Assembly (NCBI RefSeq): GCF_002310495.1
Contig: NZ_CP023344.1
Span: 4,605,501-4,669,500 of the forward strand
Source of the DNA: Nibricoccus aquaticus
Lineage (GTDB): Bacteria; Verrucomicrobiota; Verrucomicrobiia; Opitutales; Opitutaceae
Direction: 5' to 3'
Length of the DNA: 64,000 bases
Numbering within the stretch: position 1 is the first letter of the stretch; each line of letters starts with the position of its first letter. The notes beneath the pieces are model-generated. The model was given only the letters and a program-made list of their open reading frames with translations, was not told the DNA's origin and did not search any database. The position numbers were made by a program, and so were the translations under genes. Below are positions 8,043 through 63,697 of the stretch, piece after piece.

Positions 8043-8084
8043 GATTGAAGAGGATCGAAGTACTAAGGTTTTATTTTGAGGAGT

Positions 8085-10487
8085 TCAGTTCAGCACGATG
8101 CGCACACTCGCTTCACGGCCGTCGTTTAGTTTCTTCACCCACAATTTCTGCGTGGGCGCGTCGAAGAACCATCCCTCGCCGCCTGCGCGAAACGCCTGCA
8201 ACGAGCTCTGCGCCTTCAGCGATTGACCGCCTGCGGTGACACCGGCCGGAGCTTTCTTCGTGTTCAGATGCATGCGGAGAAGATGATTCCGCTTCGTCGC
8301 CGACCAGGAAACGGTCAGCTCATCGCTGGCGTTCCACGCAGCAGAGATTCGCACCGGAGCCTCCGTATCGTGCAGGACGAACTCACTGGATCCGCGAACC
8401 ATCGGCCACATCGCAAGCGTTACAAAGCCCGCAGACTCCGCGGAGCCGAAGCCGCTCTCGGCATTGGAGATTTCCATCGGGATGATCGCGCCCTCTTTGA
8501 TGTAGAGCGGGAATTTCGTGCGAGCGTTCCACCCCTTGAACCAGGTCACCCGTGCAGGGCCCTGCGTTGTCTGCGTTTCGTCCCAGAAATCGTACCACAG
8601 GCCTTCCGGCAGATAGATGGAGCGCTCGGGATTCGCGTTGAGCATCGGCGCCACGAGCAGCGAAGTGCCGACGGTGAACTGATCATCCACACGCCAGGTA
8701 TCGATGTCCTTTTGATTGCTCCACACGAGTGGCCGGCAGACCGGCGCGCCCGTCGCGGCGGCTTCGTTCGCGAGCGTCATCCATAACGGGATCAAGTCGG
8801 TATGCAGCCATGACAGATAACGGAAATGATCGGACGCTTCCTTGGAGTACCACCAGGGCATGTGCAGCGTCTGCATGCCGGGCAGCATCGCGCCGAACTG
8901 CGCCCACCTCAGCCAGACGTGTTCGGGCGCGGGCCGGTCCTCGAAACCGCCGATGTCCGTCGAGACAAAGGGAAATCCTGAAAACGCGAGCGACAGCGTT
9001 GAATAGACGGATGAGGGCAGTCCGTTGTTTGCGAAGCTTCCGCTGAGATCACCCGGCCACTTGAAATTGGTGTAAGCCGAGGAGCCCATCCACGCGGCCC
9101 GGGGAATCATCAGAAAATCGTCGCCGTATTTCTTGGTCAGCGACTCGAAGAAAACGCGGCTGTACTCCGTCGCGTAGGAATTATGCACGTCCCGACCGAT
9201 GCGGCCCCCATGCAGCAGTGCGTCGGCTTCGAGATCCTGACCGGCATCGAGTTTAAAACCGCGAATGCCAGTCTCGAGACTGCGGTCGATCTGCGCCTGC
9301 CACCACGCGAAGGCCTCCGGATTGTAGAGATCGATCATGTTGTAGTAGCGGCCGACCAGCTCGCCCGAAGTGGAAATTTTCACGTCGCCCGTTTCAGCCG
9401 GCGCATTTCGCTGCACCATTAAGCGACGATCCACGGCCTCCTGCCAGTTGCGTGAATTTTTCGTCGTGTACGGCACCGTCCACGCGAGAGCACGCACGCC
9501 CAAGTCTTCGAGTTCCTTGTTGAGTGCTTTGAAATCGGGACTGAATGCGGGATTCGGAATGAACGAGGAACGTGCGTCCTGCCAAGGTGGCTCAAACCAC
9601 GTGACGCCCACGGGAATATTCATCGCATGAAGTTTCTTCACCATATCGACCGAGTGGTGCCCCCGCAGCGTGTCGATATTCGCACTCGGTTGATCCGGAT
9701 CTGACATCAGCCAGAACCACGGTTTGAACGACCAGCGCGGAGGACGCGCTGGCAGCCCGATAACCGAGAGAAAATTTTTCACCGTCGAAGCAATGCTCTC
9801 GCCACGCACCAGCGTGATATCCAGCTCCCCCGTCGGCGCCTCGTAGGAAATGCGATCAGAGCTTTTCTGACCGACATCGAAGCGCACGCTCCCACCGTAG
9901 TTCAGGAAAAAGGCATAGTTGGCCGTCGATACATAGTAGGGCATGTAGGCGCATTCATCCGGCGTGCCGCCTTTATCCCACAGGTCGAACGACTGACCGC
10001 GTTGCGCCACCCGGCCGTTCCACATTTCGCCGAAGCCGTAAATTTCCTCCACTGTTCCCAGCATGTTCCCACCGCGCACAGCCGTCGCTCCGCGATTTTC
10101 TGGCGCCAGGATTATCCGGAATCCGTTTTTTCCAAATTTACGCACCTCACCGCGTGCATCTGCTCCACTGGAAAGCTTGAACTGCAGCCGCACACTATCG
10201 CCGTCGAGCGACGCGCTCTGGAGTCCTGCGAGGGACACCCATTTGCCGTCGATCAAAAAGGCAGGACGGTCGGATTGGCTAAAATAAGTCTTTCCCGCGG
10301 CATCCTGAAGACGAATTCCCAGAGCCTGTCGCTCCAGTACGAGCACGGCCTCTTCGTTGTGGAAACTGAATGAGTCCGGCGTCTCACGAAGCCATGAGTT
10401 CGATGACACCGGCGCAGCCAGCATGGGCTGGAGCCAGCACACGCTCAGGACGGTGAGACGAAGAAAAAACACGAAAGCTTTGTTCAT
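8085..10487 (-). CDS. Secreted GH31 alpha-glycosidase
   Basis: The start at 10487 gives 800 residues and a signal peptide (KAFVFFLRLTVLSVCWLQPMLA); a longer frame opening at 10787 would overlap the upstream gene and is rejected. GH31 marks are GFGEMWNGR and MPYYVSTANYAFFLNYGG in the N-terminal beta domain, KPWFWLMSDPD at the barrel start, the nucleophile segment GFKLDAGQD with Asp at about 414, and the acid/base segment FKWPGDLSG with Asp at about 480. The beta-sheet C-terminal domain contains DQFTVGTSLLVAPM and SIYLPEGLWYDFWD. GH31 enzymes are retaining alpha-glucosidases, alpha-xylosidases and relatives. Specificity is not decidable from motifs; in a sulfatase/lyase operon an alpha-xylosidase or other side-chain activity is plausible. 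It lies 26 bp after the GH105 gene. Confidence 0.9.
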   Translation of the reverse strand: MNKAFVFFLRLTVLSVCWLQPMLAAPVSSNSWLRETPDSFSFHNEEAVLVLERQALGIRLQDAAGKTYFSQSDRPAFLIDGKWVSLAGLQSASLDGDSVRLQFKLSSGADARGEVRKFGKNGFRIILAPENRGATAVRGGNMLGTVEEIYGFGEMWNGRVAQRGQSFDLWDKGGTPDECAYMPYYVSTANYAFFLNYGGSVRFDVGQKSSDRISYEAPTGELDITLVRGESIASTVKNFLSVIGLPARPPRWSFKPWFWLMSDPDQPSANIDTLRGHHSVDMVKKLHAMNIPVGVTWFEPPWQDARSSFIPNPAFSPDFKALNKELEDLGVRALAWTVPYTTKNSRNWQEAVDRRLMVQRNAPAETGDVKISTSGELVGRYYNMIDLYNPEAFAWWQAQIDRSLETGIRGFKLDAGQDLEADALLHGGRIGRDVHNSYATEYSRVFFESLTKKYGDDFLMIPRAAWMGSSAYTNFKWPGDLSGSFANNGLPSSVYSTLSLAFSGFPFVSTDIGGFEDRPAPEHVWLRWAQFGAMLPGMQTLHMPWWYSKEASDHFRYLSWLHTDLIPLWMTLANEAAATGAPVCRPLVWSNQKDIDTWRVDDQFTVGTSLLVAPMLNANPERSIYLPEGLWYDFWDETQTTQGPARVTWFKGWNARTKFPLYIKEGAIIPMEISNAESGFGSAESAGFVTLAMWPMVRGSSEFVLHDTEAPVRISAAWNASDELTVSWSATKRNHLLRMHLNTKKAPAGVTAGGQSLKAQSSLQAFRAGGEGWFFDAPTQKLWVKKLNDGREASVRIVLN

Positions 10488-10513
10488 AAACACGACGATT
10501 CGAAACGGTCTGA

Positions 10514-11641
10514 TCAACGCAGCAGGGCGGTCGCGCACCATAGCACCGGTGCCTGTCCGTGCAGGTCGCCGACGATGCGAAGTCGGTCCAGGTAGTATTG
10601 CCGGTCGTTTTTCTTGTTGGTGCCTTCGCACACATCGCGCACGGCACCGTCGGGATTGATCTGCCCCACCAGCGCGAGCCAGCCCTTGCGAGCCGCCGGT
10701 CCGTAGGTCTCCGCATCGAGCCAGCCATTCTTTACCCCCGTGATGAACGCAAAGGTGAACATGCCCGTGCCCGACGATTCTTTCCACGAGTCAGGACCGT
10801 CGATCAATTGCCGCCACATGCCATCCTCCGACTGATACTTCAGCAGTGCGGCCATCATCTTCTGATAGCTCGCGAGAATGGACGCGCGCTGCGGATGCTG
10901 CGGCGGCAATCTCAGGAGCAATTCAGACATACCGGCGGCGAACCAGCCATTCCCGCGGCTCCAAAAAAACGGCACATCGGGTGCGTGATGAAAAAGCCCG
11001 TTGGGCTGCTGAAGACGCTCGAGATAATAAACCGCTTCGTCAGCCGCGCGATCGAGATACTTGCGGTCACCGGTCGCCCGATACGCCTGCGTCTGCAGCA
11101 TGGTGATCATGTACATGTCGTCGATCCAGAGACGCGTATGCCAGCTGAGTCCTTTCGAGATCGCTTCTTGCGCCTCCGGGCTGAGCGTGACCTGGCCCGA
11201 GTGCAGACCCCATTGCTGATCCGCCTGATAAAGTCCGGGCGTCAGATAACGCGCATCGCGTGTCTGGATGAAGAGCTCCAGCGGCAGCGCGCCGAAGATG
11301 GAGTAGTCGACGTTGAACGGAGGCGGCACCGCCTTTGCGCGTTCACCAAAAAGGGGCTGATAGCGCGCAACCAGTTGCGCAGTCAGATCGATGTTGTTGC
11401 TACGCTGGGCAAACGTCAGCGCGCCGTACCAGGTGCAGGTTTCGACGTAATGAAGGATGCCGGTTTTTCCAAAGGTGCGGTAATCGTTGCCAATGAAACG
11501 CTGAGTTACCCGCTTTCCGACTTCCTCCGGAGACGCTCCCGCCGGATAGGGACCAAAGTCGAAGCCTGCGCGAACTTCTGTGCTCACCAGACACAACAAC
11601 GCAGACAACAGGAGGGAAGGTTTGAACAGTGTCTTTATCAT
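10514..11641 (-). CDS. GH105 unsaturated glycuronyl hydrolase
   Basis: This 375-residue protein has a signal peptide (LLLSALLCLVSTEVRA). The length suits GH105, which hydrolyses the 4,5-unsaturated uronic acid left at chain ends by polysaccharide lyases. Key motifs are TWYGALTFAQR, LWIDDMYMITMLQTQ with the catalytic Asp at about 174-175 (compare Asp143 of YteR), FFWSRGNGWFAAGM at about 230, QLIDGPDSWKESSGTGMF and the C-terminal NPDGAVRDVCEGT. It is the first gene of the minus-strand operon running to the left edge and thus lies next to the presumed promoter between 11642 and 11802. Its presence with a lyase in one operon is the best evidence that the substrate contains uronic acid. Confidence 0.92.
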   Translation of the reverse strand: MIKTLFKPSLLLSALLCLVSTEVRAGFDFGPYPAGASPEEVGKRVTQRFIGNDYRTFGKTGILHYVETCTWYGALTFAQRSNNIDLTAQLVARYQPLFGERAKAVPPPFNVDYSIFGALPLELFIQTRDARYLTPGLYQADQQWGLHSGQVTLSPEAQEAISKGLSWHTRLWIDDMYMITMLQTQAYRATGDRKYLDRAADEAVYYLERLQQPNGLFHHAPDVPFFWSRGNGWFAAGMSELLLRLPPQHPQRASILASYQKMMAALLKYQSEDGMWRQLIDGPDSWKESSGTGMFTFAFITGVKNGWLDAETYGPAARKGWLALVGQINPDGAVRDVCEGTNKKNDRQYYLDRLRIVGDLHGQAPVLWCATALLR

Positions 11642-45865: not shown

Positions 45866-48415
45866 ATGACTCCGATGATGCAACAATATCACGAGGTGAA
45901 ACGCGGTCTCCCGCGCGACACTTTGCTGCTCTTCCGGCTCGGCGATTTCTACGAGATGTTCTTCGAGGACGCCGAGATCGCCTCGCGCCTCCTCGGGCTC
46001 ACCCTTACCAAGCGCGGCGAAACCCCCATGGCCGGCCTGCCCTACCACGCGGCCGATAACTACGTCGGCAAGCTCCTCGCCGCCGGGAAAAAGGTCGCCA
46101 TCTGCGATCAGGCCGAGCCCGCCAAGGCCGGCAAACTCGTCAAGCGCCAGCTCACTCGTATCCTGAGTCCGGGCACGACCCTCGCCGCCAACCAGCTCGA
46201 CGCCGCCCGCAATCACTACCTCTGCGCCCTCGCCCACGATAAAGCCGGCCTCCACGCCGCCTGGCTCGATCTCTCCACCGGCGAATTCAAAATCGCCACC
46301 GATCCGCGCCCCGAAAATCTCCTCCCCGTCCTCACCGCCCTCGATCCCGCCGAACTGACCGTCGCCGAAGGCGCGCTCGAAGCCTGGAAAACCGCCCCGC
46401 ACGAGCAGACCGCTCTCCACGCGCTTCACCACTTCGCCGCCGCCCGACTCGTCACCGACCTTCCCGCCTATCAATTCGAAACCGCCGGTGGCGCCCGCTC
46501 CGTCATGAACACGCTCGGCGTGCTCAATCTCGAAGGCTTCGGCCTCGCGCCGACGCACCCCGCGCTAGGCCCCGCCGGTGCGCTCGTTTACTACGCCACC
46601 GAAAATCTCTGCGCCAAACCCGAGAACCTCCGCGGCCTACAAGAATACCGCAGCGCCCGCACACTCCTCCTAGATCCTGCCACACTCAGGAATCTCGAAA
46701 TCTTCGCTTCCTCTCGTGGCACCCGCGAGGCCTCACTGCTCGCCGCCATCAACCGCAGCGCCACGTCCGCCGGCGCGCGCCTCCTAGAGCGCTGGCTCGC
46801 CGCCCCCACACTCGACCTCGTCGAGATTCACCGCCGCCAGTCCATCGTCGGCGAACTCATCCAGCAATCCACGCGCCTCGTCGATCTCCGCGGCCTCCTC
46901 GCCAATGTCCGTGACATCCCACGCATCCTCGGCCGCCTCCAAAACCGTCTGCGCAATCCACGCGAACTCGGCGGCATCAAAGACACACTCAACCAACTCC
47001 CCCACATCCGCGCCGTCCTCGCCAGTTTTTCGTCCGGCTCTCAACTCTCAACCCTCAGCTCTCAACTCCAGGAGTTCACCTCCCTCCGCGAACTCCTGCC
47101 TCGCGCTCTCGCCGAAGAGCTTCCCGCAGACCTCGCCGACGGCGGCTATATCCGCGCCGGTTACGATACCGAACTCGATCGCCTCCGCTCGCTCACAACC
47201 GACAACAAAACCTGGCTCTCCGAACTCGAACGCGCCGAACAGGAGCGCACCTCCATCCGCAGCCTCAAGGTCAGGTTCACGAATAATTTTGGCTATTACA
47301 TCGAGATCACCAAAGCCAACCTCCACCTCGTCCCCGCCGACTACATACGCCGCCAGACCACGGTGAACGGAGAGCGCTACGTCACCGAATCGCTCAAGCA
47401 GAAGGAAAAGGAAATCTTCCACGCCGAGGAAAACGCCCTCGCCCGCGAACTGGAGCTTTTCAACCAGCTCATCGCTGCCGTCCTCGACGAGTCCGTCGCC
47501 CTCGCCCAGACCGCTGACACCCTCGCCGAACTCGACGTCCTCGCCGGCTGGGCCGTCCTCGCCCGCGAATGGGATTATTCCCGCCCCGTGCTCGACGATG
47601 GCGACACGCTCGAAATCGTCGAGGGCCGCCATCCCGTTGTTGAGCAGATGCTCAAATCACCTTCGGCCATCACAGCTAACGGCACGTCCCAAGCCTTCGT
47701 CCCCAACGACACCGTCCTCGCCGCCGACGACGCCCAACTTGCCCTCATCACCGGCCCGAACATGGCGGGTAAATCGACCTACATCCGCCAGGTCGCACTC
47801 ATCACGCTCATGGCGCAGATCGGCTGCTGGACTCCCGCCAAATCCTGCCGCGTCGGCCTCGTCGATCGCATCTTCTCCCGCGTCGGCGCGAGCGACGACC
47901 TCGCCCGGGGCAACTCGACCTTCATGGTCGAGATGAACGAAACCGCCAACATCCTCAACAACGCCACTGACCGCTCGCTCATCATCCTCGACGAGATCGG
48001 CCGCGGCACCTCGACCTACGACGGCCTCAGTATCGCCTGGGCAGTCGTCGAGCATCTCCACCGCGGCGAAACCAAAGGCCCGCGCACGCTCTTCGCCACG
48101 CACTATCAGGAACTCACCCAGCTCGAAAAACACCTCACGCGCCTCCGGAATTTCTCCGTCGCCGTGAAGGAGTGGAACGACGACATCGTCTTCGTCCGCC
48201 GCGTCATTCCCGGCGCCGCCGACCGCAGCTACGGCATTCAGGTCGCCCGTCTCGCCGGCCTCCCGCTCAGCGTTATCGACCGTGCGAAAACCATCCTCGC
48301 GAAACTCGAAACCGACGACACCTCCGTCGAACTTCCTTCCGCGCCAAAAGCTCGGCCGAAGAAAAAAATCTCTGTCAAACCCGACGCCGAAGACTCCCAG
48401 CTCAGCCTGCTCTGA
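45866..48415 (+). CDS. mutS: DNA mismatch repair protein MutS
   Basis: The 849-residue protein has the full MutS order. The mismatch-wedge motif is RLGDFYEMFFEDA (Phe-x-Glu) in domain I. The connector, lever and clamp follow, then the ATPase with Walker A GPNMAGKSTYIRQVALITLM (about 629), the FMVEMNETANIL loop, Walker B RSLIILDEIGRGTSTYDGLS and FATHYQEL. It recognises mispaired bases and recruits MutL. A purine-rich site (GGGAGGG, about 45848-45854) precedes the start. Residues about 391-400 (QLSTLSSQLQ) are encoded by a heptanucleotide array at 47038-47065 placed in the middle of the protein; motifs on both sides are intact, so function is probably kept. Codon use is strongly C-ending. Confidence 0.97.
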   Translation: MTPMMQQYHEVKRGLPRDTLLLFRLGDFYEMFFEDAEIASRLLGLTLTKRGETPMAGLPYHAADNYVGKLLAAGKKVAICDQAEPAKAGKLVKRQLTRILSPGTTLAANQLDAARNHYLCALAHDKAGLHAAWLDLSTGEFKIATDPRPENLLPVLTALDPAELTVAEGALEAWKTAPHEQTALHALHHFAAARLVTDLPAYQFETAGGARSVMNTLGVLNLEGFGLAPTHPALGPAGALVYYATENLCAKPENLRGLQEYRSARTLLLDPATLRNLEIFASSRGTREASLLAAINRSATSAGARLLERWLAAPTLDLVEIHRRQSIVGELIQQSTRLVDLRGLLANVRDIPRILGRLQNRLRNPRELGGIKDTLNQLPHIRAVLASFSSGSQLSTLSSQLQEFTSLRELLPRALAEELPADLADGGYIRAGYDTELDRLRSLTTDNKTWLSELERAEQERTSIRSLKVRFTNNFGYYIEITKANLHLVPADYIRRQTTVNGERYVTESLKQKEKEIFHAEENALARELELFNQLIAAVLDESVALAQTADTLAELDVLAGWAVLAREWDYSRPVLDDGDTLEIVEGRHPVVEQMLKSPSAITANGTSQAFVPNDTVLAADDAQLALITGPNMAGKSTYIRQVALITLMAQIGCWTPAKSCRVGLVDRIFSRVGASDDLARGNSTFMVEMNETANILNNATDRSLIILDEIGRGTSTYDGLSIAWAVVEHLHRGETKGPRTLFATHYQELTQLEKHLTRLRNFSVAVKEWNDDIVFVRRVIPGAADRSYGIQVARLAGLPLSVIDRAKTILAKLETDDTSVELPSAPKARPKKKISVKPDAEDSQLSLL
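47038..47065. repeat. Heptanucleotide array inside mutS
   Basis: Four tandem 7-bp units, CTCTCAA with the third unit CCCTCAG, lie in frame in mutS. The array differs at one base from the one in the S55 peptidase gene at 62334-62361. Confidence 0.85.
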
Positions 48416-58219: not shown

Positions 58220-59980
58220 ATGCGTATCGGCCTAGCCCAGCTCAATCCCACCGTCGGCGACCTCGCCGGCAACCGCCGCAGAATCCTCGACGCCTACCGC
58301 TCGCTCGTTGCCCAAGGCGCCGAACTCGTCGTCTTCCCCGAGCTCATCGTCTGCGGCTACCCGCCCCGCGACCTGCTCTTCAAACGCCGGTTCGTCCCCG
58401 ATAACGAAGAGTCCCTCACCGAGATCGCCGCCGCCATCGGCGAAGTCCCCGCCATCATCGGCTTCGTCGAAACCAACCCCGCGCCCACCGGCCGCCGCTT
58501 CTTCAACGCCGCCGCCTTCTGCCACCGCGGCGAGATCCAGGTCATCGGCCGCAAATGCCTCCTGCCCACCTACGACGTTTTCGACGAAGACCGCTACTTC
58601 GAAGCCGCCAGTGAGCCGCGCATCGTCACCTTCGACGGCAAACGCATCGGCCTCACCATCTGCGAAGATCTCTGGAAAAACCCGAAAATCGACACCGCCC
58701 GCCTCTACGAAATCAACCCCATCGCCTGGCTCGCCGCCGAACGCGTCGATCTCGTCGTCAACCTCTCCGCCAGTCCCTGGTACGCCGGCAAAGGCGCCGT
58801 CCGCGACCAGCTCGTCACCGACACCGCGAAACAACTCCGCTGCCCCCTCGTCTACGTGAACGCCATCGGCGGCAACGACGAGCTCGTCTTCGACGGCCGC
58901 TCCCTCGTCGCCAACGAGAACGGCGAAATCACCGCCCGCCTCGCCGCCTTCACCGAAGACCTCCGCACGGTCGAAATCCCGCTCTCATCGTCTCCCACCC
59001 CGCCCGCCTCCGAACCCTCGAGCGTTAAAAGTTCAGCGTTGAGCGTTGAGCGTTCCACCAATTCGCCCGCATCCACGCCTGCGCCCACTGGTCACTGGTC
59101 ATTGGTCACTGGTCATTCGCCGCCTCCAGCGGCGTCCAATCATTCAGCCGACATTTATGCGGCGCTCGTCCTCGGCCTCCGCGATTACGCCCACAAGAGC
59201 GGCTTCAAACGCGCATTGATCGCCCTCTCCGGCGGCATCGACTCCGCCCTCGTCGCCGTCCTCGCCGTCGAAGCCCTTGGCGCGGAGAACGTCATCGGCG
59301 TTTCCCTGCCCTCCTCGATCTCCTCGCAACACTCCAAAGACGACGCCCGCATCCTCGCCGAAAACCTAGGCATCCGTTTCGAGACCATCGCCATCGCCGA
59401 CGCCGTCGCCACCGCCGAAGCCGCGCTCGGCCCCATTTTCGCCGGACGCGCCCGCGACGTCACCGAGGAAAACATCCAGGCCCGCATCCGCGGCGTCATC
59501 ATGATGGCGCTCTCCAATAAATTCGGCGCGCTCCTCCTCACTACGGGAAACAAGAGCGAGGTCGCCGTCGGCTACTGCACGCTCTACGGAGACATGTGCG
59601 GCGGCCTCGCCGTGATCTCCGACGTATTCAAAACTCAAGTCTACGCCCTCTGCCGCTGGATCAACTGCGAGCGCGAGATCATCCCTGAGAACACGATCAC
59701 CAAACCCCCCAGCGCCGAACTCCGCCCCGGCCAGGTCGATCAAGACAGCCTCCCTCCTTACGACATCCTCGACGCCATTCTCGAAGGCTACGTCGAAAAA
59801 GGCCTCAGCCGCCGCGACCTAGTCCGCGAAGGTTTCAACGAAACCGTCATCAACGACATCGTCCGCAAAGTGGACCTTAACGAGTATAAGCGAAAGCAAA
59901 TGGCCCCCGGCATTAAGATCACCCCCCTCGCCTTCGGCGTCGGCCGCCGCATCCCCATCGTCCAAAAATACGTGAGCTGA
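58220..59980 (+). CDS. nadE: Glutamine-dependent NAD+ synthetase
   Basis: The 586-residue protein couples a nitrilase-type glutaminase domain to the synthetase. The N-terminal catalytic triad is Glu in [17 protein letters not shown], Lys in [15 protein letters not shown] and Cys in [10 protein letters not shown]. The synthetase starts near residue 315 with the P-loop [20 protein letters not shown], then [20 protein letters not shown] and [19 protein letters not shown]. It makes NAD from deamido-NAD, ATP and glutamine. The interdomain linker (about 254-310) is expanded by two heptanucleotide arrays, giving [16 protein letters not shown] and [11 protein letters not shown]. Both domains look intact. 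The start at 58220 fits the family N-terminus [18 protein letters not shown]. Confidence 0.95.
59031..59051. repeat. Heptanucleotide array 1 inside nadE
   Basis: Three tandem 7-bp units: GTTCAGC, then GTTGAGC twice. The reverse complement GCTCAAC is a one-base variant, in another phase, of the CTCTCAA unit in mutS and the S55 gene. Confidence 0.75.
59086..59117. repeat. Heptanucleotide array 2 inside nadE
   Basis: Four tandem units, CACTGGT with the third unit CATTGGT, plus a partial CATT. The GGTCATT-type heptamer resembles short tandemly repeated repetitive sequences reported in cyanobacteria. Confidence 0.85.
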
Positions 59981-60010
59981 TTTACCCCGTAGAGTTTCAA
60001 CCACTTATTT

Positions 60011-60447
60011 CCACTGATGGACACTGATCCGATCCACTCCGCCGATCACGACCCCGATGGCTACGCGCTCATAGGCGCTTGCTACGAAGTCCACAAAGAA
60101 CTCGGCAACGGATACCTCGAAGACGTTTACCAAGAAAGCCTCGAGCTTGAACTGACAGATCGCTCCATCCCATTCGTCGCTCAACCCAAGCTGCCGATCT
60201 TCTACAAAGGCCTCCCCCTCCGTAAACACTACGAGGCCGACCTCCTTGTTCTCGACAATATCATCGTCGAATTGAAAGCCGTGAAAGCACTCCTGCTAGA
60301 GCATGAGGCGCAACTGCTCCACTATCTAAAAGCCACCAGCCGCCGCGTCGGCTACCTGGTTAACTTCGGCGCATTCCCCAAACTCGATTGGCGCCGCCGC
60401 ATCCGCTAATCCGGTTTTCATAAGTGTTCTTCAGTGCCCATCAGTGG
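60011..60447. mobile_element. GxxExxY unit bounded by 17-bp inverted repeats
   Basis: CCACTGATGGACACTGA (60011-60027) is inverted as TCAGTGCCCATCAGTGG (60431-60447), 16 of 17 positions matching. The only gene inside is the GxxExxY gene, and the left repeat overlaps its start codon. The right repeat runs into a TTAAAAAAA tract just before hemL. The arrangement looks like a compact transferred unit, but no transposase is encoded and no target duplication was found. Confidence 0.5.
60017..60409 (+). CDS. GxxExxY-family protein (PDDEXK_3-like)
   Basis: This 130-residue protein carries the family name motif G-N-G-Y-L-E-D-V-Y in [20 protein letters not shown]. It also has the nuclease-like core [20 protein letters not shown], in which Asp, Glu and Lys occupy the D-ExK positions of the PDDEXK fold, and [20 protein letters not shown]. 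The family is assigned to the PD-(D/E)XK nuclease superfamily (PF13366); no cellular role is settled. The start codon lies inside the left 17-bp inverted repeat. It sits alone between nadE and hemL, two housekeeping genes, and is probably an insertion. The catalytic-type residues are intact. Confidence 0.9.
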
Positions 60448-60470
60448 TTAAAAAAATTCCGCCTTCGCTC

Positions 60471-61772
60471 ATGTCCGCCTCCACTCCCTCCCTCGTCCCC
60501 AACTCCACCGCCCTCTTCGCCCGCGCGCAGCAGCTCATGCCCGGCGGCGTCAACTCCCCCGTCCGAGCCTTCCGCTCCGTCGGTGGCGCTCCGTTCTTCG
60601 TGAAGGCCGCCCGCGGCGCCACGCTCCTAACGGCCGACGACCGCGTGCTCATCGACTTCGTCTGCACCTGGGGCCCCGCCATCCACGGGCACAATCACCC
60701 CGTCATCAAAAAAGCCATCGCCGCCGCCCTCGAAAGCGGCACGTCCTTCGGCACGCCCAATCCCTACGAAGTCGAGATGGCCGAGCTTATCGTCCGCTTC
60801 GTTCCCTCGATTAAAAAAGTCCGCCTCTGCAACAGCGGCACCGAAGCCACCATGTCCGCCATCCGCCTCGCCCGCGGGTTCACCAAGCGCGACAAGATCA
60901 TCAAATTCTCCGGCTGCTACCACGGCCACTCGGACTCGCTGCTCATTAAAGCCGGCTCCGGCGCACTCACGCACGGCCATCCCGACAGCGCCGGCATCCC
61001 CGCCAGTTTCGCGCAGGAAACCATCGTCCTTCCCTACAACGACCGCGCCGCCCTCGACGCCGCCTTCGCCGCCAACCCAGAAAAAATCGCCTGCGTTATC
61101 ATCGAACCCTACTGCGGCAACGTCGGCTTCATCATGCCCGACCCGGGCTACCTCGCCTACCTCCGCGAGATCACCGCCAAACACGGCACCGTCCTCATCT
61201 TCGACGAAGTCATGACCGGCTTCCGCATCGCCAAAGGCGGCGTTCAGGAACGCGAAAACATCACCCCCGATCTCACCTGCCTCGGAAAAATCATCGGCGG
61301 CGGTCTCCCCGTCGGCGCTTTCGGCGGACGCGCCGACATCATGGATCACCTCGCCCCGCTCGGCCCCGTTTATCAAGCCGGCACCCTCAGCGGAAACCCC
61401 CTCGCCATGGCCGCCGGCATCGCCGGCCTCAAACTCCTCGAAGAACAAAATCCCTACGTCCGCCTCGACGCCCTCGGCCAGCGCCTCCGCGACGCCGTCC
61501 TCGCCGCAGCCCGCAACAAAGGTCTCCCCGTGCATGTCCCCCAATGCGGCTCCATGTTCAGCATCTTCTTCACCGACACCCCCGTCCGCGACTACGCCAC
61601 CGCCCTCAAAAGCGACGCGAAGATTTTCGCCAAATTCTTCCACCTCTGCCTCGAAAAAGGCGTTTACTTGGCTCCCAGTGCTTACGAAGCCGGTTTCCTC
61701 AGCACCGCGCACGACGGCCCCGCGATCGACCGGGCCTGCGATGTGCTCACCGAAAGCCTCCACTCGCTGTAA
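60471..61772 (+). CDS. hemL: Glutamate-1-semialdehyde 2,1-aminomutase
   Basis: ATG 60471 gives 433 residues, the normal length; an ATG nine codons upstream lies in the inverted repeat. It is a class III PLP aminotransferase-fold enzyme that moves the amino group of glutamate-1-semialdehyde to make 5-aminolevulinate, in the C5 route of haem synthesis. Motifs: [76 protein letters not shown] (Asp contacting PLP), the Schiff-base Lys in [16 protein letters not shown] (about 273) and [19 protein letters not shown]. The GxxExxY unit and its A-tract lie directly upstream, so its promoter may be altered. Confidence 0.96.
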
Positions 61773-61825: not shown

Positions 61826-63697
61826 ATGCCCAAGTTCGCCGCCCTCGCCCTCGCCTTCCTCGTCGCCTTAGCGGCCCCACTCACCGCCCAGCCGACCGAC
61901 GCGCCCCAACTCCCCCTCGCCGAGATAAAACCCGGCCAGACCGGCGAAGTCTGGACCGTTTTCCAAGGCACCCAAATCGAGCCCTTTTCCGTCGTCGTCA
62001 CCGGCGTTCTTCAAAACGCCCTCGGCCCCGGCAAATCCCTCATCGTCTGCGAACTCACCGACCCTCGCGTCCAAAAAATGGGCGCCGTCGCCGGCATGAG
62101 CGGCAGCCCCCTCTACATCGACGGCAAACTCGCCGGCGCCCTCAGCTACCAAATCCAGCGCTTCGAAACCGTCCGCTTCGCCGGCTTCACCCCTATCGGC
62201 GACCTCATCGAAGTCTCTCAATTCGAAACCAAATCCCCCCGCCCCGTCACCCCGCACGACAACAACCTTATCCCCCTGGATAAAAACTCCGCCTCCACCA
62301 AACGCACCTCCTCGCTCCGCACTCCGCTTCCGTCTCTCAACTCTCAACCCTCAACTCTCAATTTTTCTTCCTCCGTCTCCTCCGTCGCCTCCGACTCCTT
62401 CACTCCCCTCACGCCCGTCTTCGCCCTCGGCGGCATCTCCCCGCAAGTCGCCGCCCTCTTCACCGAAGACTTCCGTGCCCTCGGCCTGAATACCACCGCC
62501 CTCGGCGGCCACACCAACACCTCGTCCGCCAACTCTAGCGCCGCCTCCGCCTCTCACCCTTCACCCTTCCCTCTTCACTCTTCTCTCCGCCCCGGCTCCG
62601 CCGTCGCCGTCGCACTCGCCACCGGCGACATCACCCTCGCCGGCACCGGCACCGTCTCCCACGTCAACGGCAACCACATCCTCGCCTTCGGCCATCCCAT
62701 GCTCGGCCTCGGCGACGTCGAGCTCCCCATGGCCAGCGCCGAGATCCTCACGATCCTCCCCTCCGCGCTCAACTCCTTCAAACTCTCCAACACCGGCGAA
62801 GTCATCGGCACCATCAGCCAGGACCGCCTCTCCGCCATCTACGGCGAGATCGGCCCCAAGCCCGCCATGCTCCCCGTTGTAGTGAAAACTCCAGCACGCA
62901 CCCTCAACTTCTCCACCGTCCGCCACGACCGCCTCGCCCCCATGATCGCCGGCGCTGGCCTTTCCCAAGCCGTCCTCGGCTCCAACGAAAACGGCCTGGC
63001 CGAAGGTTTCCACATCACCACCACCATCACCTATCCCGGCGGCCGCACCCTCGCTACCGACACGATCTTCGCCGGCCCCCAAGGCTTCCAATCCGGCCTC
63101 AGCCAGTTCATCCGCCGCCTCTCCGCCAGCCTCGGCAACCCCATCGCCGACGTCTTCCCCGACGCTCTCTCCTTCGTCGTCGAAACGCTCCCGAAAAATC
63201 CCGCCGCCAACCTCGATCTCATCCAGGTCTCCCGCACACGCCTTCAACCCGGCGACGACCTCCAGGTCACTCTCACCGTCCGCGATTACCAAGGCTCTCC
63301 CGTCCGCGAAACCGTCTCCATCCCCGTTCCCTCCGCCTGGCTCGGCCGCCGCCTCGAACTCCTCGTCATGCGTGGCGACGCTCTCGAACGCGTCACCGGC
63401 CGCCCCGAGATGGCCACCGTCTCCCAGATCCGCTCTTTCGATTCCTACCTCGACCTCATGAGCGACAAACGCCGCGACGACGGCCTCTACGTCGTCGTCG
63501 CCGAACGCGCCGGCGCCTTTCTCGACCAGACTCAACTCACGCTCGATTATCCCGGCAGCATCGAACGCATCGCCCGCGGCTCCGACGAAACCCGCTTCCA
63601 AAAACGCGACGTCCTCGTCCCCCTTTGGGAAACACATCTCTTCCCCGGCAAACTCCTCGACGCCGCCCACCGCCGCCCCCTCCAAGTCAGCGAATGA
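61826..63697 (+). CDS. SpoIVB-like S55 serine peptidase
   Basis: ATG 61826 gives 623 residues with a signal peptide (ALALAFLVALAAPLTA). The S55 catalytic Ser is probably Ser94 in GAVAGMSGSPLYIDGKLAGA, and the second conserved region is HVNGNHILAFGHPMLGLGDV followed by ELPMASAEI. The family is named for the Bacillus sporulation protease but occurs in many non-sporulating bacteria with unknown targets. Residues about 136-195 and 235-260 form low-complexity Ser/Thr/Pro stretches encoded by heptanucleotide arrays at 62334-62361 and 62551-62585. The C-terminal half (about 400-623) is beta-rich. It is 53 bp after hemL on the same strand. Confidence 0.85.
   Translation: MPKFAALALAFLVALAAPLTAQPTDAPQLPLAEIKPGQTGEVWTVFQGTQIEPFSVVVTGVLQNALGPGKSLIVCELTDPRVQKMGAVAGMSGSPLYIDGKLAGALSYQIQRFETVRFAGFTPIGDLIEVSQFETKSPRPVTPHDNNLIPLDKNSASTKRTSSLRTPLPSLNSQPSTLNFSSSVSSVASDSFTPLTPVFALGGISPQVAALFTEDFRALGLNTTALGGHTNTSSANSSAASASHPSPFPLHSSLRPGSAVAVALATGDITLAGTGTVSHVNGNHILAFGHPMLGLGDVELPMASAEILTILPSALNSFKLSNTGEVIGTISQDRLSAIYGEIGPKPAMLPVVVKTPARTLNFSTVRHDRLAPMIAGAGLSQAVLGSNENGLAEGFHITTTITYPGGRTLATDTIFAGPQGFQSGLSQFIRRLSASLGNPIADVFPDALSFVVETLPKNPAANLDLIQVSRTRLQPGDDLQVTLTVRDYQGSPVRETVSIPVPSAWLGRRLELLVMRGDALERVTGRPEMATVSQIRSFDSYLDLMSDKRRDDGLYVVVAERAGAFLDQTQLTLDYPGSIERIARGSDETRFQKRDVLVPLWETHLFPGKLLDAAHRRPLQVSE
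62334..62361. repeat. Heptanucleotide array 1 inside the S55 gene
   Basis: Four tandem units, CTCTCAA with the third unit CCCTCAA, identical to the mutS array except for one base but read in a different frame. Less regular 7-bp periodicity extends a few units upstream (CTCCGCA, CTCCGCT). Confidence 0.85.
62551..62585. repeat. Heptanucleotide array 2 inside the S55 gene
   Basis: Five degenerate 7-bp units: CTCTCAC, CCTTCAC, CCTTCCC, TCTTCAC, TCTTCTC. They encode a SHPSPFPLHSSL-type low-complexity segment. Confidence 0.65.

Follow-up and report, generated by a model that had tools for sequence, protein, structure and literature searches.

The described systems closest to the element reported here are RAYT/REPIN families, insertion sequences (IS) with their MITEs, recombination-promoting nucleases and the intervening sequences of bacterial rRNA genes. 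RAYTs are HUH tyrosine transposases, the recombination-promoting Rpn nucleases are PD-(D/E)xK enzymes, and some IS families make no target duplications. For the 23S rRNA intervening sequences (IVSs), the accessible part of PMC4990558 describes S23 as the open reading frame of some IVSs and gives the Coxiella IVS as 428–444 nt, with a 28-bp terminal stem and cleavage by RNase III. The same part of that source reports that a selfish character has been suspected for rRNA IVSs and calls their origin unclear more than 25 years after their discovery (PMC4990558).

Here we determined the full extent of a small unit in a 64,000-nucleotide stretch of the Nibricoccus aquaticus genome (the window). The unit spans positions 59999–60449 (451 bp) and consists of two inverted arrays around a single small gene, a GxxExxY gene (TIGR04256/PF13366 by profile matches) of 130 aa at 60017–60409 on the plus strand. 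Each array is made of three modules of about 10 bp, with a 7-bp core and a 3-bp spacer, and has AACC as its outer edge, the last C of which doubles as the first base of module 1. The left array (59999–60028, plus strand) reads CACTTAT-TTC-CACTGAT-GGA-CACTGAT, and the right array (60420–60449), read on the minus strand, is CACTGAT-GGG-CACTGAA-GAA-CACTTAT; a run of A at 60450–60456 lies directly outside the latter. With at most one mismatch, the array pattern has two matches in the whole window (59996–60017 and 60431–60452), compared with 0.15 expected in shuffled sequence. The initial annotation had described a 17-nt inverted repeat that overlaps the start codon and encloses only a PDDEXK-type gene between nadE and hemL. 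This repeat is present (60011–60027 and 60431–60447, 94% identity), but it is part of the longer arrays, paired with an offset of one module. As described, the ATG at 60017 falls within the left array, GxxExxY is the only gene between the arrays, and profile matches confirmed both neighbours as co-directional host genes on the plus strand: NAD+ synthase nadE upstream (58220–59980; NF010588, 691.9 bits) and glutamate-1-semialdehyde 2,1-aminomutase hemL downstream (60471–61772; TIGR00713, 608.6 bits).

The window protein scores 134.8 bits against TIGR04256 (cut-off 35) and 133.9 bits against PF13366 (PDDEXK_3, cut-off 22), and the gene is a full member of this family, whose definition rests on the protein and does not include the arrays. 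Its PD-(D/E)xK core comprises D75 and E85-x-K87, plus E35, Q99 and Y103, and E35, D75, E85, K87 and Q99 are invariant across 33 sequences including that of the window. The AlphaFold2 model has a pLDDT of 90.4, and the nearest solved folds by Foldseek are SSO0001 (E 4.1e-4), which we take to be a Cas4, and lambda exonuclease (E 4.6e-4); by sequence, no match to solved structures was significant (best E 0.36). The invariant catalytic residues, combined with the resemblance of the model to Cas4 and lambda exonuclease, make it likely that GxxExxY is an active nuclease, as predicted from sequence and model. The window gene contains no DDE, HUH or recombinase domain, its matches being TIGR04256, PF13366 and a sub-threshold Cas4. 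A role as a defence gene was rejected, with only weak PADLOC matches (best E 0.026), as was a phage origin, with no confirmed relative in viral_contigs (A2 profile) or in phage records (query L036). A distant relative is present in 7 of 72,556 plasmid records.

Many genomes among those searched have GxxExxY genes in multiple copies (39/57). The expectation of multiple copies holds weakly for this genome, which has two such genes, the second of which (L001) adjoins leuB, but gene-less arrays are many there. Separately, contig G043:C92 carries two like-oriented GxxExxY genes separated by about 2 kb (8074–8418 and 10392–10736) with near-equal scores, a possible recent duplication.

We next compared GxxExxY loci in general, aligning each left flank with the reverse complement of the right flank and counting a score of at least 24 as inverted arrays. 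The first set comprised 71 loci from this genome and its relatives, 70 of them usable, and the second the best 80 of 538 matches in named contigs of Verrucomicrobiota, Planctomycetota, Bacteroidota and others, 77 of them usable. In the first set 58 of 70 loci reach the threshold, compared with 5.6 expected from mismatched pairs, and the median flank score is 40 versus 17 between flanks of different genes. The corresponding figures for the second set are 69 of 77 versus 14.8 expected, with 11 of 388 mock positions at the same loci; the higher expectation there probably arises because these genes are closer relatives with common module classes. A minority of loci have no clear array (score below 24; 12/70 and 8/77). 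The unit, gene plus arrays, typically measures about 450 bp, with a few loci up to about 700 bp. Most of the homologues sampled are thus flanked by terminal repeats, in agreement with the initial annotation, but the arrays differ from gene to gene and there is no single shared sequence: module classes include CACTGAT, CACTAAT, CGCTAAT, CACGGAT, CACGAAA, CGCGAAT, CACAGAG and GCCATGAA. Array similarity rises with protein identity (Mantel 0.315, maximum of 999 permutations 0.114; 115 genes with a score of at least 28). Three GxxExxY loci (L148, L151 and L075) also have longer or palindromic inverted ends outside the modules, and those of L075 resemble the core common to the gene-less pairs of its own genome.

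Cores and spacers were compared in the 58 of 149 loci that have three equally spaced modules on both sides and a core agreement of at least 17/21. Left and right arrays agree at 475 of 522 free core positions (0.91) and 168 of 301 spacer positions (0.56); the selection for core agreement raises the first of these figures. Between loci, agreement is 0.61 for cores and 0.38 for spacers, so that spacers too agree between left and right above the between-locus level. Better retention of cores than of spacers is what would be expected for binding sites of a protein that reads the repeat, whereas a pure hairpin would keep both equally well.

Arrays also occur without a gene. In this genome CCACTGATNNNCACTGA has 56 matches with up to two mismatches, versus 4 for the reversed control, and the general edge TTTTTAACCRCNRA has 108 versus 1. 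These gene-less arrays are mostly single, and 23 of the 24 examined are intergenic by crude gene calls. The genome keeps arrays of classes CACGGAT, CACAGAT and CGCGAAT, which neither of its two GxxExxY genes has. Two relatives assembled in one or two contigs, G019 and G004, contain many inverted gene-less pairs with starts 50–205 bp apart, and the gene-less pairs of relatives have varied cores. When inverted pairs of up to 500 bp were counted, gene-bearing pairs included, the outer-edge arrangement seen at the genes was found 19 to 0 times in G019 (97 sites), 13 to 0 in G004 (51 of 56 sites listed) and 2 to 0 in this genome (29 sites, one class). One strict pattern has 97 matches in G019, 56 in G004 and 21 in this genome, and is rare in the other complete or nearly complete relatives (7 in G003, 2 in G012 and 0 in G055). 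Another dispersed repeat, of the TTTTGGACAGGATTAAGAGGATTAACAGGATT kind with modules of about 10 bp, was seen in L105, L110 and L114, with no gene as yet assigned to it.

The single arrays of this genome are almost perfectly polarised by replichore along the contig, on which dnaA starts at base 31. Among the 100 array sites listed, of 108 counted, the minus strand carries 67 of the 68 below 2.1 Mb and the plus strand all 32 above 2.29 Mb. Single arrays of the window's own class are polarised in 25 of 25 cases. Gene orientation was rejected as the cause, since only about 70% of genes are co-oriented per arm by crude calls (66/94 and 82/120), compared with 99 of 100 arrays. Gene direction nonetheless confounds the comparison in part: among the 19 arrays whose two neighbours were both called, 15 have both running against the array, 3 have both running with it and 1 is mixed. 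The polarity is not general, with single matches in G019 and G004 of mixed orientation. IS608-type elements target the lagging-strand template (abstract of PMC6006769). Such insertion would also fit the array polarity seen here, and we regard it as a lead. Several further features of contig G000:C1 were recorded. Its GC skew is very strong: nine 20-kb stretches up to 2.0 Mb range from -0.10 to -0.34 and nine between 2.2 and 4.2 Mb from +0.22 to +0.32. The final two, at 4.35 and 4.58 Mb, are close to zero, and dnaA lies at the start of the contig. The 54-kb segment 1105830–1159504 contains a cluster of 19 minus-strand array edges that belong to several classes. In L110 (G000:C1:1985001–2005000), four or more array classes are stacked within about 250 bp (~1992900–1993150) in one orientation throughout, linked by CGGA-rich sequence and T-runs.

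We examined where gene-bearing units are inserted. Of 149 distinct loci, 91 share one or both flanking genes with another locus, and 68 are supported on both sides. In 62 of these 68 the unit lies between two genes co-directional with GxxExxY, under a support rule that by construction favours recurrent, conserved operons. Recurrent junctions include nadE/hemL, gatA/gatB, leuB/alaS, pheS/pheT and one before uvrB, at which one element (L080) is in the opposite orientation. Since the gene-bearing units mostly lie between co-directional genes and in the same orientation as these, the host transcript probably includes the small gene. The junctions used repeatedly reveal positions at which bacteria tolerate an insertion.

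At nadE/hemL itself, 30 hemL loci were fetched and nadE adjoins hemL in 22. Six of these, this genome included, have the GxxExxY gene; one has a gene-less array pair, 11 have a short junction of at most about 90 bp without arrays and four have longer unrelated sequence. The junction therefore stands without the gene-bearing element in 16 of 22 genomes, in line with the empty sites sought by the initial annotation. A recent transposon private to this genome was rejected, as nadE-GxxExxY-hemL occurs at 11 other loci with three array classes. In one relative (G036) a CACTGAT element abuts the 5' part of a CGCTAAT-class gene, the rest of which is gone.

For the elements of G004, joined flanks were sought in its genus mate G057, and 10 of 15 junctions were fully covered by the query. 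At two of them (L256 and L261) the junction in G057 matches without the element present in G004, which may be a gain in one genome or a loss in the other. At five (L254, L258, L259, L260 and L262) both flanks were found in G057 with something in between: at L262 a CACAGAG-class pair where the CACTAAT pair stands in G004, at L260 a CGCAGAG pair adjoining a truncated CACTAAT arm, at L258 CACTAAT-class arrays in both genomes, and at L259 unrelated sequence in which arrays were not seen. The other three (L253, L255 and L257) gave a one-sided match or hardly any match. G004 also has a second copy of the gene and both arrays at another locus, broken by frameshifts, whose clear similarity to the nadE/hemL copy spans from array edge to array edge. 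At the corresponding place G057 has two flank matches about 500 bp apart, and a Geminisphaera contig (L130), apparently this G057 locus judging from its position, carries a copy with an open frame. No target-site duplication was detected in 32 gene-less or broken units (longest shared flank word, mean 3.84 for own versus 3.67 for cross pairs), in an analysis that trimmed T- and A-runs at the edges first and so would miss duplication of a T-run.

GxxExxY distances do not follow HemL distances (Mantel r 0.03, p 0.40; 14 hemL-adjacent loci, with nadE opposite in 12), and a repeat with 13 loci gave the same picture (r 0.11, p 0.23). By topology, the five CACTGAT genes group together in the GxxExxY tree; of four CGCTAAT genes, three form a cluster and one stands elsewhere, and this cluster divides the CACTAAT genes; read in the same way, the HemL tree has array classes and empty sites intermixed. 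With distances that do not follow HemL, simple vertical descent is unlikely at nadE/hemL and finds no support at this junction. This does not extend to all junctions: GxxExxY distances follow the host at gatA/gatB (r 0.61, p 0.002, 8 loci) and at ABC/FtsX (r 0.51, p 0.004, 15 loci). At leuB/alaS and pheS/pheT there was no correlation with the host, but with only 5 and 4 loci. Because some junctions track the host and nadE/hemL does not, elements seem both to persist and to be replaced or to arrive anew. The pattern that the initial annotation had named as speaking against a mobile unit, the same gene at this spot in relatives with diverged flanks, was found in part, with gene and host distances in disagreement at nadE/hemL. 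As judged from the sequence distances, this disagreement argues for repeated arrival or replacement.

The same design is found with an unrelated protein. For the S23 four-helix-bundle genes (TIGR02436), sampled as the single best-matching locus per genome in 30 relatives, an array score of 24 is reached at 24 of 30 loci, compared with 1.8 expected, and many units have 7-bp modules such as AGTAGCG and AGGAGTC. S23 and GxxExxY are unrelated in fold and share the inverted-array design. In 11 of the 30 S23 loci both neighbours, their sides and the strand are common to GxxExxY loci, at five distinct junctions including gatA/gatB and pheS/pheT, and co-directional placement holds for every one of the 19 S23 loci whose two neighbours are supported. 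Chance sharing was rejected: in a 464-kb sample of this genome, own loci excluded, 1 of 102 co-directional junctions matches an element junction, a control that is only rough as the S23 loci and the background come from different genomes. Likewise, many searched genomes contain S23 genes in multiple copies (38/57), and Avd, a protein of diversity-generating retroelements, is a match for the tested S23 protein (E 1.6e-7). An Rfam scan of 16 other element loci gave no match. The nadE open frame contains two 7-bp tandem arrays, GAGCGTT x5 (59020–59054) and CACTGGT x4.3 (59086–59115), that look like the arrays of S23 units, yet an S23 gene was not found in this genome; further S23-like 7-bp tandem arrays in the window are CTCTCAA at 47038–47068 and 62334–62361 and TCACCCT at 62554–62583.

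The reading we favour, with a probability of roughly 0.5, is that the unit at 59999–60449 belongs to a class of minimal dispersing DNA elements, each with one small gene and two inverted tandem-module arrays, in which the encoded protein would recognise the module of its own arrays. In the PD-(D/E)xK branch (RecB/Cas4/lambda-exonuclease-like), the nuclease would act at the arrays by cutting or resecting, and this would help host replication and recombination to copy the unit, or arrays lacking a gene, into other sites. Dispersal of the elements is well supported; that the protein recognises the arrays and that the nuclease drives dispersal we infer from sequence comparisons. The proposal of a compact mobile unit holds in that gene and ends behave as one unit and gene-less copies exist. 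Self-mobilisation by the GxxExxY nuclease is not established, because S23 genes, which are not nucleases, share the design and the junctions, and something other than the nuclease may move the class. Also against the favoured reading are the abundance of arrays in only some relatives, the array classes that persist here without a cognate GxxExxY gene, the lack of a detected target-site duplication and the apparently largely vertical descent at some junctions. A less likely competitor is a reading in which the arrays would be the mobile part, moved in trans by another enzyme of the host or of an element, and GxxExxY and S23 would be passengers or array-binding helpers with roles such as copy-number control or protection. 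Two unrelated protein families with a common architecture and common junctions, 108 edge sites against two GxxExxY genes in this genome, and the classes here that have no cognate gene all favour it, but the covariation of protein and module and the conserved catalytic residues suggest an active role for the protein.

Another reading places the elements at the RNA level, where the arrays would pair in the operon mRNA, RNase III would excise the unit and spread would occur via an RNA intermediate, as in an IVS. The sense RNA of the window unit does fold with the arrays paired and is more stable than 100 shuffles (z -3.26), although any inverted repeat gives a terminal stem. The co-directional placement of GxxExxY and S23 loci, the Avd match of one S23 protein, the presence of S23 in rRNA IVSs and a Coxiella IVS size like that of the 451-bp unit (accessible part of PMC4990558) point the same way. 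However, selection for an RNA stem is not supported by the left/right mismatches, which are not biased toward G-U-compatible changes, either at 126 GxxExxY loci (158 compatible versus 193 incompatible, p 0.07 in the opposite direction) or at 28 S23 loci (32 versus 46), and spacers diverge more than cores. We consider such elements quite unlikely and read the arrays, from these sequence patterns, as probable DNA sites, a reading that also allows an RNA role. Already disfavoured, and very unlikely in our view, is a vertically inherited host gene whose arrays are autoregulatory operators, with the single arrays as sites of the same regulator. It would account for the junctions that track the host and for the intergenic position of gene-less arrays (23/24 by crude gene calls), but it is at odds with the disagreement with HemL at nadE/hemL, the two G004 elements absent from G057, the whole-unit duplication in G004, the varied cores of gene-less inverted pairs, the inverted element at the uvrB junction and the remnants of one class abutted by another. 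Finally, a conventional IS with MITEs, or a RAYT/REPIN system, in which GxxExxY stands in place of a lost transposase would share the terminal inverted repeats, the gene-less pairs and the coexistence of gene and repeats; with no target duplication detected, no DDE, HUH or recombinase domain, and arrays that are tandem modules rather than palindromes, we regard it as highly improbable.

A broader and more speculative proposal, which we think unlikely, is that GxxExxY units, S23 units and the classical 23S rRNA IVSs form one class that spreads by annealing at the replication fork, in the manner of lambda Red. An array-binding protein, whether exonuclease-like or a four-helix bundle, would expose or carry single-stranded array DNA, which would then anneal at the lagging-strand template. 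If true, this would explain the missing target duplications, the replacement of resident elements with one-sided loss and the polarity of single arrays in this genome.

The class may bear on the old puzzle of insertions in bacterial rRNA genes. Should GxxExxY and S23 be the genes of a single class of elements of about 450 bp, many unexplained genes and intergenic repeats would be accounted for together, very small mobile units that are self-contained would be established, and where rRNA intervening sequences come from could be put to the test. The matched arrays and proteins also provide a natural set of candidate protein-DNA recognition pairs. In the open-access literature searched, GxxExxY and S23 genes are without an assigned role and no description of such elements was found. 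Published mentions of GxxExxY there, in the portions seen, use it as a gene label and do not describe arrays, junctions or mobility, and searches on S23 names gave none on such elements by title or abstract opening. A search combining PDDEXK, transposase and terminal inverted repeats found nothing, six array sequences returned only papers unrelated by title, and a search on repeats in Verrucomicrobia had nothing relevant among the matches listed.

Compared with known systems, the class resembles RAYT/REPIN (TnpA-REP and REP), which in the sources partly available to us also pair a transposase-like gene with a repeat that is dispersed alone. In G004 and G019 the repeat that flanks the gene is indeed dispersed as inverted gene-less pairs, whereas in this genome the gene-less arrays are mostly single. 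The GxxExxY unit differs in its PD-(D/E)xK enzyme with a Cas4/lambda-exonuclease-like fold and no HUH domain, and its arrays are non-palindromic tandem modules such as CACTGAT, unlike REP. Terminal inverted repeats and short gene-less copies are shared with IS and MITE families, but a known transposase domain is absent and target duplication was not found. On repeated independent arrival at one conserved site, as in homing endonuclease elements, the junctions are divided: distances disagree with the host at nadE/hemL, but gatA/gatB and ABC/FtsX track it. The Rpn (YhgA-like) recombination-promoting nucleases are likewise a nuclease family linked to DNA mobilisation, but belong to PF04754, and the portion of the abstract of PMC5350276 consulted does not mention an array-bounded unit. 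Cas4 and lambda exonuclease are the closest solved folds to the GxxExxY model, but the window protein has just 130 aa and lies in a repeat-bounded unit between nadE and hemL. The 23S rRNA IVS, as far as described in the part of PMC4990558 available, matches the window unit in length (about 430–450 bp), in its one small ORF and in inverted ends of about 28–30 bp. In addition, S23 genes of Opitutales-type relatives sit at junctions that GxxExxY units also occupy. The window unit instead lies in a protein operon rather than inside a 23S rRNA gene and encodes a nuclease rather than S23; its ends are module arrays that have relatives lacking the gene, and a G-U bias of RNA pairing was not seen. Overall, the class works like a REPIN/RAYT or MITE family but does not have the enzymes that define these, and it resembles the rRNA IVS in size and plan but not in residing in rRNA. 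We treat it as a new class that contains known protein families, widespread, apparently undescribed and settling between the genes of operons.
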